From Rhodoferax lacus (lineage in GTDB: Bacteria; Pseudomonadota; Gammaproteobacteria; Burkholderiales; Burkholderiaceae_C): DNA of 64,000 nt. The DNA lies in assembly GCF_003415675.1 (NCBI RefSeq), contig NZ_QFZK01000015.1:1-64000 (forward strand). Reading direction: 5' to 3'. Of the stretch, positions 13,698 to 18,963 are shown one piece after another. Both the position numbers and the translations under genes were made by a program. The number at the start of each line of letters is the position of its first letter. Position 1 is the first letter of the stretch. The notes beneath the pieces are model-generated. The model saw nothing but the letters and a program-made list of their open reading frames with translations, made no database searches and was not told the DNA's origin.

Positions 13698-14948
13698 ATG
13701 ACCCTATCTCAAACCCCCACGGCCCATCCAACCATTCAATGGCAAGAGGGCGGCGTGGAATGCAGCGCCCGCTGGCGCTCCGAGCGCGGCGCACTGCCAC
13801 CCAAAAAAGTGGTGCTGGCCGATGACACCTTGAGCGCTGACACCGCCTACCGCATGGCCTGCGAGGGCACGGCGCTGCTGTGGCGCGGCGACTTCCAGAA
13901 TGCGCGCCAAATGCTGCAGGCCCTGGGCCGCCGCATTGACCAGTCCGCCAGCACCGACAAGCGCGGTCGCAAGCCCAAAGCCCCGGCCCTGCAAGCCAAA
14001 GACCCTCAGCAAAGCGCAGAAGAGTCGGCAGCACTTGCGGCCAAAGGCTTTCACCAGCACCGCCAGGCCCAGGCCCAGCGCGCCCGTGTCTTGGGCATGG
14101 TGCTGCTGTCTTTTGATGCGGACTATGGCTTGAGCCTGCGCCGCAGTCCTGACGCCCGCCAAGCCTGCGCCCAGGCCTGGGGTGAGCCTGTGGCAGGCGA
14201 GGGCGCCAGCGTGGCCTCCATGCGCGAGCTGCTGGGCCTGGTGAGCGCTTATGAGTGGCGCAAGAACGGCGTGGAGATTGCGGCCCTGGGCGAGGCGCCC
14301 CACAACCGCATCTACCCGCACTACGGCGTGTACTCACCTCTGCGCGGCGAATACATAGCGCTGGTGGCCGTGGCTCACACCCCTAAGGACACCGCTGCGC
14401 TGACGGCCTTCGACATCGGCACCGGCACCGGTGTGCTCGCTGCGGTGCTGGTGCGCCGCGGTGTGGGCCAGGTGGTGGCCACCGACAACGACGCGCGTGC
14501 CCTGGCATGCGCTGCGGAGAATTTGGCGCAACTGGGTGTGGCTGACAAGGTGCAGTTGCAACAAGCCGATCTGTTCCCGCAAGGACTGGCCGACATCATC
14601 GTCTGCAACCCGCCCTGGTTGCCCGCACGCGCAAGTTCGTCCATCGAACATGCCGTGTACGACGAGGGCAGCGCCATGCTGCTGGGTTTTTTAAAGGGAC
14701 TTGCTGCGCACCTTAGACCGAAGGGCGAGGGTTGGCTGATTCTGTCCGACCTGGCCGAGCACCTGGGGCTGCGCACGCGCGCTGAACTTTTGGCGGCTAT
14801 CGCGTCGGCAGGCCTGCAGGTGAAGGCGCGCATCGACGCCAAGCCGCAACACGCCAAGGCCCGGGATGCCACCGACCCGCTGCACTTGGCGCGGGCGGTG
14901 GAAGTAACGTCCCTGTACCGCCTGGTTGCGGCACCGCTGGTCGCCTAA
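13698..14948 (+). CDS. Class I SAM-dependent methyltransferase, N-methylase type
   Basis: 416 residues. The N-terminal ~190 residues are Ala/Gln-rich and unassigned. The C-terminal half is a Rossmann methyltransferase: the SAM loop FDIGTGTG at 238-245, the acidic end of strand 2 in ATDNDARAL, and the catalytic NPPW at 304-307, as in enzymes that methylate amide or exocyclic amine nitrogens (HemK/RlmG-like). The stretch IYPHYGVYSPLRGEY precedes the SAM site, as in release-factor and rRNA methylases. Its substrate is unknown. The stop overlaps the stop of the convergent HD gene by 4 bases. Confidence 0.82.
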   Translation: MTLSQTPTAHPTIQWQEGGVECSARWRSERGALPPKKVVLADDTLSADTAYRMACEGTALLWRGDFQNARQMLQALGRRIDQSASTDKRGRKPKAPALQAKDPQQSAEESAALAAKGFHQHRQAQAQRARVLGMVLLSFDADYGLSLRRSPDARQACAQAWGEPVAGEGASVASMRELLGLVSAYEWRKNGVEIAALGEAPHNRIYPHYGVYSPLRGEYIALVAVAHTPKDTAALTAFDIGTGTGVLAAVLVRRGVGQVVATDNDARALACAAENLAQLGVADKVQLQQADLFPQGLADIIVCNPPWLPARASSSIEHAVYDEGSAMLLGFLKGLAAHLRPKGEGWLILSDLAEHLGLRTRAELLAAIASAGLQVKARIDAKPQHAKARDATDPLHLARAVEVTSLYRLVAAPLVA

Positions 14949-15508
14949 GCCTGGGACTGCGCGAACGCAGGCCGTGTAAACACTTCCCGCAGCATGGGCT
15001 CAAAGTAGCTCAGGGGACGTGTGGGGTAGGCCGGGTCAAAGGCCGCCTGGTCATACAACTCCACAAAGCGCTGGCAGGAATCAAACCAGGGGTGGTCCTT
15101 GTGGACCAGGTGGCCATCTGCCGGTTTGCCGTAGTGGTGGGCGTAGTACTGCATCTGGAACAGGCCGTGCATCTCCACCACCCAGGTCACCTCGGCCCGC
15201 ACATAGGGTTTGAGGATGTCGGCGGCAAACTGCGAATGGTTTTCCGGGGCCAGCTCATCGCCCAGGTCGTGCACCAGCGCGGCCACAATCATCTCGATGT
15301 CGGCGCCATCGTCCTCAGCGCGCGAGGCACTTTGCAGCGAATGCTCCAGACGCGATAGCTTGTAGCCCTGCAATGAGCCGCCCAGGCGCTCAAGCGCCAC
15401 CAACAGCCGGTCGGGCAGGGCGCGGATGTAGTCATGCTCCAGCTTTTGCAGGAACACATACTCCTCCTGTGTGCCGTTTTTCATCTGGGTAAAGTTTACG
15501 GTTTCCAT
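14945..15508 (-). CDS. HD-domain diiron oxygenase, TmpB/PhnZ-like
   Basis: 187 residues from ATG 15508, chosen because AAGGA lies 7 bases upstream; a GTG at 15514 is too close to that site. The six metal ligands expected of a mixed-valent HD oxygenase are present: His56 (RLEHSLQ), His80-Asp81 (VHDLGD), His91 (ENHSQ), His114 (EMHGLF) and Asp153 (LYDQAAFD). PhnZ and TmpB cleave the C-P bond of alpha-hydroxylated aminophosphonates made by a partner 2-oxoglutarate dioxygenase, and exactly such a dioxygenase gene lies 45 bases upstream. The Tyr/Glu substrate gate of PhnZ is not obvious ahead of His56, so the substrate may differ. Plain phosphohydrolase activity is the alternative. Confidence 0.65.
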   Translation of the reverse strand: METVNFTQMKNGTQEEYVFLQKLEHDYIRALPDRLLVALERLGGSLQGYKLSRLEHSLQSASRAEDDGADIEMIVAALVHDLGDELAPENHSQFAADILKPYVRAEVTWVVEMHGLFQMQYYAHHYGKPADGHLVHKDHPWFDSCQRFVELYDQAAFDPAYPTRPLSYFEPMLREVFTRPAFAQSQA

Positions 15509-15553
15509 GGTCACATCCTTGTCGGTTGGCTTGTCGGTTGGCCTGCGTGGCAG

Positions 15554-16672
15554 TCAGCCGAATTTACGTTGCAATACCAGGTAGTGGCTGCGTGGGCCGT
15601 CGCGGTCCACATAGCAGCCCTGCAACTGGCGATGACCTTCGGCGGGGTTGAAGGAGGTGCGGCCGTGCAGTACACGGTTGTTGTCGAACATCATCATCTC
15701 GCCAGCGTTCAGGCGAAAGCGCAGCTCGTATTGGGGGTCTTCGAACAAGGTGCCCAGGCGCTTGCGCGCGCGGTGGTAGCGCACCGTGTCCTCCTGCGAC
15801 ATCAGGGGGATGTCGTCCAGGCGGGGGCTGTAGTGCACGCCGGTCATGTGACCCTCGCCGTCCAGCTCCACCATGGGTTTGACCGAGACCAGATGGGTGG
15901 TGGCGTCGCGGTACTCAAAGCGCACGGGGATGCGGCTCAGCAAGGCAAAGCCCTCGGGGTCTTCCAAGCGCACCTGCTCGGCCACGGCCAGACTGTCGAC
16001 CAGGGTGGAGAAGCCGCCTGAGGTTTCGTTCTGCAGGCATTGCAGGATCTGGATACCGGGCACCGGTGTGCGGTAGGGGTTGTCGGTGTGCGGCCCCAGG
16101 GCTACCGGGCGGTAGGCCAGATCATTGGATTCGGGGCGCGAATACACCTCGAAGAAGTCGCCAAAATTGGTGGTGCGCACAATGCCAAAACGCTCGGCAA
16201 TGTGCAGGATGGAGTCGGCCTGTGTGGGGGTTTCGTTCACCAGCAGGAAGCCCAGTTCAATGAAGTCCTTCAGGGCCTGGTACAGCACTTCGTCGTTCTG
16301 CAAATCGGCCCAGACATAGAGCGGTTTGCGTTGCAAATCGGAACGCCAGGCGCGGGTTGCTGGCAAACCGGTACTGAGCACGCTGCCCCGCAGAAGTTCT
16401 TGGGGATCAAAGCTGCCGGCAAAGCCATCACTGAAGGCCAGGTGCAGCATGTCTTTTTCAAAGCGCGCACCCAGCAGGTACAGATCGTCCGGCAACAGGT
16501 GCGGGTTCATCAGGCGCTGGCCGGTGACCGCGTCGCGCTGTGAGGGGTCGGGGCTGCGGGCGCGCAGCCACAGGGCAGGCAGTTCGGTTTCATGGGTGCT
16601 GTCGCGCATGAGTACCCGGGCTTTGCCCGGTTCGGTGCGGACAAGAATCTCTGGCATGTCGTGAATTTTCAT
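15554..16672 (-). CDS. 2-oxoglutarate/Fe(II) dioxygenase, gamma-butyrobetaine hydroxylase-like (TmpA-like)
   Basis: 372 residues from ATG 16672; a TTG at 16732 would add 20 residues without a ribosome site. An N-terminal GBBH-like domain (LPALWLRARSPDPSQRD) lacks the usual Cys cluster that binds zinc. The C-terminal TauD/TfdA double-stranded beta-helix carries the iron triad His195-x-Asp197 (GPHTDNP) and His336 (VLHGRTSF), with Arg348 to hold 2-oxoglutarate. Relatives hydroxylate gamma-butyrobetaine or 2-(trimethylammonio)ethylphosphonate. Pairing with the HD oxygenase gene makes the phosphonate role (TmpA) more likely than carnitine synthesis. A divergent LysR gene probably controls the pair. 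Confidence 0.7.
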   Translation of the reverse strand: MKIHDMPEILVRTEPGKARVLMRDSTHETELPALWLRARSPDPSQRDAVTGQRLMNPHLLPDDLYLLGARFEKDMLHLAFSDGFAGSFDPQELLRGSVLSTGLPATRAWRSDLQRKPLYVWADLQNDEVLYQALKDFIELGFLLVNETPTQADSILHIAERFGIVRTTNFGDFFEVYSRPESNDLAYRPVALGPHTDNPYRTPVPGIQILQCLQNETSGGFSTLVDSLAVAEQVRLEDPEGFALLSRIPVRFEYRDATTHLVSVKPMVELDGEGHMTGVHYSPRLDDIPLMSQEDTVRYHRARKRLGTLFEDPQYELRFRLNAGEMMMFDNNRVLHGRTSFNPAEGHRQLQGCYVDRDGPRSHYLVLQRKFG

Positions 16673-16755
16673 GGGGGAAGAAAAGCAGTTGCTGATGCCC
16701 TGCAGTCTGCTTGATATGACTCCATCTTTCAAACGAAAAAAGCATCCGGTGTAAG

Positions 16756-16770
16756 ATTAGTTTAACTAAT
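16756..16770. promoter_or_regulatory. Candidate LysR operator (T-N11-A palindrome)
   Basis: ATTAGTT and AACTAAT flank one central T, a perfect dyad with the T-N11-A spacing typical of LysR-type sites. A half-site-like ACTAAT recurs at about 16776-16781. It lies between the divergent dioxygenase and LysR genes, where such a regulator would control both. Confidence 0.65.
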
Positions 16771-16816
16771 GTCTCACTAATACCTCACCACTTTTTTGGT
16801 GCATGGATGCACACTT

Positions 16817-17695
16817 ATGGCCCGTCTTCCTCCCTTGAACTGGCTGCGCGCCTTTGAGGCCTCGGCCCGGGCCCTGAGCTTTACGTCGGCTGCCGAAGAG
16901 CTGAGCATGACGCAGTCGGCCGTCAGCCAGCAGATCAAGAGTCTGGAGAGCGCCTTGGGCCGCACCCTGTTCCTGCGCCGCGCCCGCGGCCTGGAACTCA
17001 CCGACGAGGGTCGTGGCTACTTGCCCACGGTACAGGCTGCCTTTGCCATGCTGGAAGAAGGCACCACGGTGCTGCAAGCGCGCAATGACCCGGATGTGCT
17101 GGAGCTGCAGGTGAACCTGTCTTTCGCCCTGTTCTGGCTCACGCCCCGCTTGGGACAGTTCATGGAAGAGAACCCCAGCGTGCACCTCAATCTGGCCACC
17201 TCGGTGTGGGCGGAGGAGCGCTCGCACAATGTGGCCTCATTGCAGATTGTGTTTGGGCTGGGCAAGAAGGAGGGCATCAGCGGCAAGCGCCTGACGCGTG
17301 ACACCATTTTTCCGGTCTGCTCCCCCAAGCTGGCCAAGCAGATCCGCACGCTGGATGACCTGCTGGCGCAGCGCCTGTTTGATTTGCCGGGCACGGCGCA
17401 GAGCTGGAGCGCCTGGCTCAAGGCCTGCCCGGAGGGCGGCGGCAGAGCCTTGCCTGCAGTACACCGGACCAGCACCTGGGCGCTCAGCCTGGACTGGGCG
17501 CAGCGCGGCCTGGGCGTGGCCCTGGCGCATGAAACCATTGCCAATGACCTGCTGGCCTCGGGCCAACTGGTGTGTCCTTTTGACTTCGCCATTCCACTCA
17601 AAGAGGCCTATTACCTGATTGCCCCCGAGGGTACGCGCACCCGCCACGCCAGCCGCGTGTTCAAGGACTGGCTGCTGCGCGAGATGGCAGCCTAA
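16817..17695 (+). CDS. LysR-family regulator (GcvA-like)
   Basis: 292 residues from ATG 16817 (MARLPPLNWLRAFEASAR is the usual opening); an in-frame GTG at 16796 adds 7 residues. The winged HTH is at about 5-65 (FTSAAEELSMTQSAVSQQIK), followed by the substrate-binding domain. Divergent from the dioxygenase/HD pair with a palindrome between them, it probably responds to that pathway's substrate. Its stop overlaps the convergent dinB stop by 4 bases. Confidence 0.9.
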   Translation: MARLPPLNWLRAFEASARALSFTSAAEELSMTQSAVSQQIKSLESALGRTLFLRRARGLELTDEGRGYLPTVQAAFAMLEEGTTVLQARNDPDVLELQVNLSFALFWLTPRLGQFMEENPSVHLNLATSVWAEERSHNVASLQIVFGLGKKEGISGKRLTRDTIFPVCSPKLAKQIRTLDDLLAQRLFDLPGTAQSWSAWLKACPEGGGRALPAVHRTSTWALSLDWAQRGLGVALAHETIANDLLASGQLVCPFDFAIPLKEAYYLIAPEGTRTRHASRVFKDWLLREMAA

Positions 17696-18963
17696 AAAAG
17701 CTGGCCCGTGCGTTCGTCGTCCTGCGCACTCTCCTGCGCGCGCGCCAGCACTGCATCACCCGCTTGCGCGTCCTCGGCTTTGAGCAGCGCGCCCACCCGT
17801 ACCCCCAGCAGTCGCAAGCGCTTTTGCAGCGGCGCGCGTTTGAGGCACTGGCCGGCAAACTGGCGTATTTCTTTGGCATCGGCGGTGAAATGGTCAATCG
17901 TCTGGTCGCGCGTGACGATCTGGAAATCATCAAAGCGCAGCTTGATGCCAATGGTCTTGCCCACATAGCCCTTGCGTTGCAGGTCAAGCGCCACCTGTTC
18001 GCACAGGCGGGTGAAGATGGCGCCCAGCTCGGCGCGGTTGCGCACGGCATGCAGATCGGTGTCGAACGTGGTCTCGCGGCTCATGCTCACCGGCTCGCTC
18101 TCGGTCACCACCGGGCGCTCGTCCTGCCCGTGCGATGCCGCATGCAGCCAGACGCCGGTGCGCTCGCCAAAGGTGTCCATCAGCCACTGCAGGTCGCGCG
18201 CAGCCAACTCGCCTATGGTCTCTATGCCGTGGCTCTTGAGCTTGGCATCCGCCTTGGGTCCTATGCCGTTGATCTTGCGGCAGGCCAGTGGCCAGATTTT
18301 GCTTTCCAGATCGTCCGCGTGCACGATGGAAATGCCATTGGGCTTGTTGAACTCACTGGCCATTTTGGCCAGCAGCTTGTTGGGCGCCACACCCACCGAA
18401 CAGGTCAGACCCGTGTCATCAAAAATGGCTTTTTGCATCAGGCGCGCCAGCACCCGCCCTCCCTCGCGCTGGCCGCCTGGCACATCGGTGAAATCGATGT
18501 ACACCTCGTCCACACCCCGGTCTTCCATGAGCGGCGCAATCTCGGTGATCAGGCTCTTGAAGCGGCGTGAATAGTGGCGGTACTGGTCAAAGTCCACGGG
18601 TAGCAAAATCGCCTGCGGGCACAGCTTGGCCGCCTTCATCAGCCCCATGGCCGAGCCGACGCCGAACTGACGCGCGGCATAGGTGGCGGTGGTGATGACG
18701 CCGCGCCCGGTGTAGCCGGACAGGATGGGGAAGAAGCTCAGCGGAATGCGGTGCAAGTGTTCCGCCGACCATTCCTGCTCCGGGTGCGCCGCACGCAACC
18801 TTCCCAGCAAGTCGTCTTCGCGCCGCCGCCCGCCTCCAATCACCACCGGCAGGCCCTTGAGCTGGGGATAGCGCAGCAGCTCCACCGAGGCATAGAAGGC
18901 GTCCATGTCCAGGTGGGCGATGCGGCGCACGGTGGGCTTGGGCTGGCTGGTGGAGGAGGACAC
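17692..18963 (-). CDS. dinB: DNA polymerase IV (Y family)
   Basis: 423 residues from a GTG at 18963. The translesion polymerase motifs are present: IAHLDMDAFYASVE with the first catalytic Asp, GVDEVYIDFTD with the paired acidic residues (SxDE replaced by VDE), and the helix-hairpin-helix KINGIGPKADAKLKSHGI. The little-finger domain follows. Beta-clamp binding is expected at the extreme C-terminus but no clear QLxLF motif is visible (the end reads ERTGQLF). No LexA box was identified upstream by eye. Confidence 0.94.
   Translation of the reverse strand: MSSSTSQPKPTVRRIAHLDMDAFYASVELLRYPQLKGLPVVIGGGRRREDDLLGRLRAAHPEQEWSAEHLHRIPLSFFPILSGYTGRGVITTATYAARQFGVGSAMGLMKAAKLCPQAILLPVDFDQYRHYSRRFKSLITEIAPLMEDRGVDEVYIDFTDVPGGQREGGRVLARLMQKAIFDDTGLTCSVGVAPNKLLAKMASEFNKPNGISIVHADDLESKIWPLACRKINGIGPKADAKLKSHGIETIGELAARDLQWLMDTFGERTGVWLHAASHGQDERPVVTESEPVSMSRETTFDTDLHAVRNRAELGAIFTRLCEQVALDLQRKGYVGKTIGIKLRFDDFQIVTRDQTIDHFTADAKEIRQFAGQCLKRAPLQKRLRLLGVRVGALLKAEDAQAGDAVLARAQESAQDDERTGQLF

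Follow-up and report, generated by a model that had tools for sequence, protein, structure and literature searches.

A dioxygenase and HD-domain diiron protein pair of Rhodoferax lacus that is unlikely to cleave C-P bonds, and the proposed ties of its HD branch to quaternary-amine catabolism in several lineages

The window analysed here is a stretch of 64,000 nucleotides of Rhodoferax lacus DNA, and it carries a unit of genes for an Fe(II)/2-oxoglutarate (2OG) dioxygenase (DX), an HD-domain diiron protein (HD) that is a probable oxygenase, and a divergent LysR-type regulator, flanked by ORFs for a methyltransferase (13698-14948) and DNA polymerase IV (17692-18963). DX is placed at 15554..16657 on the (-) strand; its ORF spans 15554-16732 (-), i.e., 392 aa open from a TTG at 16732, with the ATG at 16657 as the probable start. 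The HD gene lies downstream at 14945..15508 (-) and encodes 187 aa from its ATG. The ORF as listed, 14945-15514 (-), gives 189 aa counted from a GTG at 15514, and the ATG at 15508 is the codon where the aligned relatives begin; assuming that HD begins there, 45 bases separate it from DX. The regulator gene (16796..17695, (+), probable start ATG 16817) encodes a product that Pfam assigns to LysR; its closest models are those of GcvA and of choline-sulfate regulators, with scores below both cut-offs. A perfect 15-nt palindrome, ATTAGTTTAACTAAT (16756..16770, no strand), is a candidate LysR site. By itself it is unremarkable, since nine perfect 15-mers of this kind occur in the 64 kb; its core, ATTAG-N5-CTAAT, recurs exactly in six of 11 LysR-DX intergenic regions (the window's included), while the other five have an imperfect copy or one displaced by 1-3 letters.

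A preliminary description of this DNA had reported the divergent LysR gene with its T-N11-A palindrome, the gene order of TmpA/TmpB and the lack of an adjacent transporter, and these observations hold: the order agrees, and no transporter adjoins the unit among the next ORFs checked. There is also no carnitine gene adjacent to the unit in the window. The description had gone on to read the unit as cleaving the C-P bond of a phosphonate; such a pair would act on TMAEP or on a new phosphonate through rebuilt recognition residues. The gene order favors such a reading, as does the divergent LysR gene found in seven of 11 TmpA/TmpB loci; against it, no phosphonate gene adjoins the unit, and the only Pho-box match in the window (three mismatches, at 2281, with 4.3 expected by chance) is far from it.

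The dioxygenase of the unit matches Pfam TauD with 137.5 bits, and its residues H215, D217, H356 and R368 are kept in at least 95% of DX and TmpA proteins and in at least 85% of seven BBOX-like rows, so that the intact iron triad (H215, D217, H356) of the preliminary description is borne out. Among PDB entries, DX matches TmpA (phmmer E 1e-64, homologous over nearly the full length) better than BBOX (3e-31), and it scores 418.1 bits on the TmpA model NF049936, above the cut-off of 400, as compared to 245.2 bits on the BBOX model TIGR02409, below the cut-off of 414.75. The first of these scores favors a phosphonate pair, but the same model gives 422.5 to a dioxygenase in a carnitine cluster (L169 of genome G283) and 398 to one in a carnitine operon (L186 of G290), and its cut-off therefore cannot separate phosphonate from carnitine loci. 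TmpA/TmpB of Leisingera caerulea (PDB 6npb, 6npa) convert 2-trimethylaminoethylphosphonate (TMAEP) to glycine betaine. The TmpA chain (6npb) has no N-terminal Cys cluster; its absence from DX had been correctly noticed, but it is not the deviation that it was taken for, and it is BBOX that has one.

A tree of 42 rows (57 before those more than 85% identical were collapsed) places 25 DX rows in a clade of their own (99/94), apart from nine TmpA rows that form a clade without DX (100/100) and apart from BBOX as well. Asp204 and Ser302 occur in 38/38 DX proteins where 10/10 TmpA proteins have Asn at both positions, and they mark a pocket different from that of TmpA. The seven BBOX-like rows, two of which are the same gene, vary there too (Asn in 1/7 and 4/7), so that little about substrate charge can be read from the loss of Asn. 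Aromatic residues of DX (F190 in 38/38, F194 and Y207 in 14/14, and Y374) stand at what are presumably the cage-forming positions of BBOX, with which DX also shares the TauD family and a link to carnitine. The counts out of 38, 10 and seven leave aside the G283 and G008 dioxygenases that are paired with HD genes, and L186 and L190 are absent from the alignment behind them. By homology, DX would hydroxylate a substrate with a trimethylammonium end. A structure model of DX was left out of the argument; its mean pLDDT is 80.6, but residues 179-200, which include some of the active site, fall below 50.

The HD protein matches Pfam HD with 23.9 bits (cut-off 22), and its six diiron ligands (H58, H82, D83, H93, H116 and D155 in ORF numbering), which had been recognized earlier, are identical in 118 of 118 proteins of its own type (hereafter window-type, the window's own counted). 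Sequence matches to PhnZ and TmpB are limited to about 37 residues, and the protein falls well short of two family models, NF049941 (28.1 bits, cut-off 300) and TIGR03276 (36.8 bits, cut-off 214.6). Its predicted fold is closest to those of PhnZ, TmpB and MIOX, with hydrolases well below and oxygenases in all seven top places; absence of a fold from the VIA list was not counted as exclusion. By fold, then, it belongs to the HD-domain diiron oxygenases in the wide sense (PhnZ, TmpB, MIOX), and it is probably an oxygenase. MIOX itself is a distant likeness, being larger, only 15% identical over the aligned part and in need of no partner hydroxylase. A closer parallel is the pairing of a 2OG dioxygenase with a diiron HD oxygenase in PhnY/PhnZ, where PhnY is a PhyH-type dioxygenase, a type that some relatives of the window's HD adjoin. 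The predicted nearness to PhnZ and TmpB could be held to favor a phosphonate substrate; the residues that surround the metal site point elsewhere.

The 118 window-type proteins were compared with 23 of the TmpB/Phn-HD type, of which 11 belong to TmpA/TmpB loci and the remaining 12 do not. Invariant in 23/23 TmpB/Phn-HD proteins are 28 columns, six of them metal ligands. Of the other 22, 12 are matched in 0/118 window-type proteins; these include a Lys, the His that follows HDxG and the Glu of the YxxE gate, and six of the 12 belong to a TmpB/Phn-HD insert that window-type proteins lack. Two further columns, the gate Tyr and an Arg, are kept in 6/118 and 11/118, and the remaining eight in 34 to 118 window-type proteins. 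At the gate Glu position the window-type proteins have Tyr (102) or Phe (16), and at that of the gate Tyr, invariant in 23/23, the window's HD has Leu. The YxxE gate loop is described, in parts of a 2020 review, as a feature of TmpB-type phosphonate HD oxygenases (PMC8177086), and the claim that the window's HD lacks a Tyr/Glu gate was right as far as it went, with other TmpB/Phn-HD residues missing as well. In HD the TmpB/Phn-HD His is replaced by Asp and the invariant Lys by Gln (Gln in 118/118 window-type proteins), and these replacements argue against a phosphonate end on the substrate. After rows more than 85% identical were collapsed (141 to 92), the HD tree splits window-type (72 rows) from TmpB/Phn-HD (20 rows) at 100/100. 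Window-type HD also occurs in eight of the 12 genomes that have a TmpB over the cut-off, which means that the two are not orthologues and further weakens the case for a phosphonate pair. Among the matches listed (50 genomes), the PhnD-like genes nearest to a window-type HD gene are about 13-14 kb away (G008, G354), with none closer than 10 kb; in G000, G233 and G239 one lies about 1 kb from a Phn-HD gene.

Further evidence comes from the surroundings of the relatives. Window-type HD was found in 62 of the 397 Pseudomonadota genomes surveyed; the set of 118 loci includes 69 from one scan of genome contigs, and of the 64 places that this survey gave outside the window, 49 had their neighborhoods examined. 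Genes for carnitine dehydrogenase (CDH) and BKACE both lie near HD in 26/118 loci, from three lineages, as compared to CDH or BKACE in 0/23 TmpB/Phn-HD loci (Fisher p 0.008, for loci that are not independent); a weak CDH match (L171, 26% identity) was left out of the 26. DX accompanies HD in 39/118 loci and a PhyH-type dioxygenase in 10/118, two loci having both, and 50/118 have none of CDH, BKACE, DX or PhyH within the stretch covered. Since many loci are short, all of these counts are lower bounds. A CDH-like gene (E 1e-60) is present in 31 of 62 HD genomes (20 of 44 HD genera) versus 41 of 335 others, an association that owes part of its strength to shared ancestry, by which it is inflated.

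The first lineage comprises 19 betaproteobacterial loci, mostly from Comamonadaceae MAGs, in which MFS-[DX]-HD is divergent from aldolase-BKACE-CDH-4HBT and DX is present in 8/19. The second consists of six loci of an alphaproteobacterial family (f55) with the order BKACE-HD-CDH in 6/6, followed by acyl-CoA dehydrogenase. Divergent from these genes is one for an AraC protein of a family with a DJ-1/PfpI domain. Simple gene calling resolved both HD and CDH in two of the six loci, where they overlap by 7 and 1 bases; the CDH scores (362-367 bits) are below the family cut-off of 414. The third is G283, where HD-DX lies beside AraC-BKACE-CDH-4HBT and a second dioxygenase, closest to the BBOX model and below its cut-off, adjoins the carnitine genes. 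Clusters of the CdhABC type (carnitine dehydrogenase, BKACE, thioesterase and an AraC-type regulator) house some HD and DX relatives. A DX or PhyH match is missing from 17 of the 26 carnitine-linked loci (11/19 of the betaproteobacterial and 6/6 of the f55 loci), so a two-step scheme is not general: in these either another source can supply the hydroxyl or HD acts alone. Among open papers, the literature search found none that links an HD protein to carnitine dehydrogenase and none recognized as treating the window-type HD family.

Other neighborhoods are more varied. In several loci (L119, L116, L068 and others) the called HD gene abuts or overlaps that of a PhyH-type dioxygenase, in some with LysR divergent from them, so that HD is paired in parallel with a second family of hydroxylases. 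Near DX-HD of a Thiothrix locus (L035) and of L034 and L122 are a BADH-like aldehyde dehydrogenase and a HIBADH-like dehydrogenase, with an MDR-type reductase in two; these accessory genes hint at an aldehyde or hydroxyacid and single out no substrate. Upstream of HD, one locus (L054:3283-6639) has a class III aminotransferase gene and three tandem paralogues related to each other, one of which Pfam places in the enolase superfamily. No common theme was seen among the other HD neighbors (kinase, arginase, RtcB, AraC, peptide-type binding proteins and others).

The genome of R. lacus itself has a separate phosphonate locus (C51:1-12000, L163) with PhnD, PhnE, a TIGR03364 FAD oxidoreductase and a Phn-HD-type protein of the TIGR03276 kind (198 bits, slightly under the cut-off of 214.6), and this too counts against a phosphonate role for the window's pair. 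On a contig other than the window's, a carnitine cluster (C30:353500-373000, L174) has the order aldolase-BKACE-CDH-4HBT-4HBT-acyl-CoA dehydrogenase, its CDH scoring 605 bits against the cut-off of 414; unlike in several relatives, no DX, HD or MFS match lies beside it. A second dioxygenase gene (C67, L164 / L002) is closest to the BBOX model, though below its cut-off (336.6 versus 414.75), and has a divergent LysR gene.

Because key phosphonate-group residues are missing from HD and some of its relatives lie within carnitine-breakdown clusters, the pair probably acts on a bond of another kind than C-P. Our best reading is that HD represents an uncharacterized branch of the HD diiron oxygenases, often with a 2OG hydroxylase acting before it. 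To the fuller statement, that the unit is a pair of oxygenases accompanied by their own LysR gene, that its substrate is a trimethylammonium compound related to carnitine and no phosphonate, and that HD cuts a C-C bond, we would give slightly less than an even chance. In its favor count the CDH and BKACE linkage in three lineages, the co-occurrence of HD with CDH-like genes, the carnitine cluster of R. lacus on C30, the two dioxygenase types in HD loci, the fold of HD and the aromatic positions of DX. Against it count the 50/118 loci with none of the four partners, the lack of a carnitine gene beside the unit, the placement of the C30 cluster on another contig, the carnitine-linked loci without a dioxygenase, the low f55 CDH scores and the TmpA score of DX. 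DX, with its aromatic cage, would hydroxylate the carbon adjoining the bond to be cut, and HD, as a mixed-valent diiron oxygenase, would bind the hydroxylated product and break the adjacent C-C bond with O2 to give a carboxylate, most likely glycine betaine. Precedents for O2-dependent cleavage, in parts of the 2020 review, are PhnZ and TmpB at C-P and MIOX at C-C bonds (PMC8177086). Homology, ligands, fold branch, the missing TmpB/Phn-HD residues and the linkage of some relatives to CDH and BKACE come from the computation itself; we infer the oxygenase activity, the C-C cleavage, the order of the two steps and the regulation by LysR. As for the substrate, trimethylaminoacetone and beta-methylcholine, as derivatives of (dehydro)carnitine, would be examples, offered as a guess. 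A more specific proposal, which we consider speculative and rather doubtful, is that of a new HD diiron class following a 2OG hydroxylase of either superfamily, two unrelated types (DX and PhyH) being found in HD loci, and turning a non-acidic leak product of carnitine, of the trimethylaminoacetone type, into glycine betaine by oxidative C-C cleavage. A conversion of this kind has reportedly been seen in extracts of Pseudomonas AK1, and the class would supply an enzyme for it; the work cited in connection with the substrate is Lindstedt 1970.

It is also possible, if unlikely, that HD serves the carnitine route as a hydrolase, e.g., for betainyl-CoA, and that DX works separately, for instance by hydroxylating gamma-butyrobetaine or a homologue. 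The BKACE-HD-CDH order without an adjacent dioxygenase would suit such an enzyme, as would the lack of a 4HBT match at E 1e-12 in the six f55 loci, and most known HD proteins are phosphohydrolases according to parts of the 2020 review (PMC8177086). The six retained diiron ligands, the oxygenases that fill the top of the predicted fold comparison, the 2OG dioxygenases of two families in HD loci and the 4HBT thioesterases of other HD-carrying clusters all argue against a hydrolase. Decidedly unlikely is an alpha-oxidation of a longer betaine (e.g., delta-valerobetaine or beta-alanine betaine), in which DX would hydroxylate C2 and HD would remove C1 as CO2, with products that would feed gamma-butyrobetaine or glycine betaine. 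Such chemistry would parallel the cleavage of alpha-hydroxyphosphonates, and the second, BBOX-nearest dioxygenase of G283 would fit it; an anionic substrate end is disfavored by the lost Lys and His of HD, with Asp for the His, and, weakly, by Asp204 and Ser302 of DX. C-P cleavage, about as unlikely by our estimate, was given up as the leading explanation because of the residues, the tree and the gene surroundings; it is retained as a rival, as is the hydrolase.

The preliminary description is thus partly supported, its observations being right and its C-P interpretation unlikely, and the more interesting reading is that of an HD branch with links, in a number of lineages, to the breakdown of quaternary amines. 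As far as parts of two reviews go, three HD proteins, MIOX, PhnZ and TmpB, were named as oxygenases in 2020 (PMC8177086), and in 2023 only phosphonate variants were added (PMC10574752). Automatic annotation by the TmpA model can mislabel carnitine-linked loci as phosphonate degradation. The HD family, which sits in carnitine operons in some lineages and, across 62 of 397 Pseudomonadota genomes, keeps the diiron site with other residues around it, could bring new chemistry to quaternary-amine catabolism.
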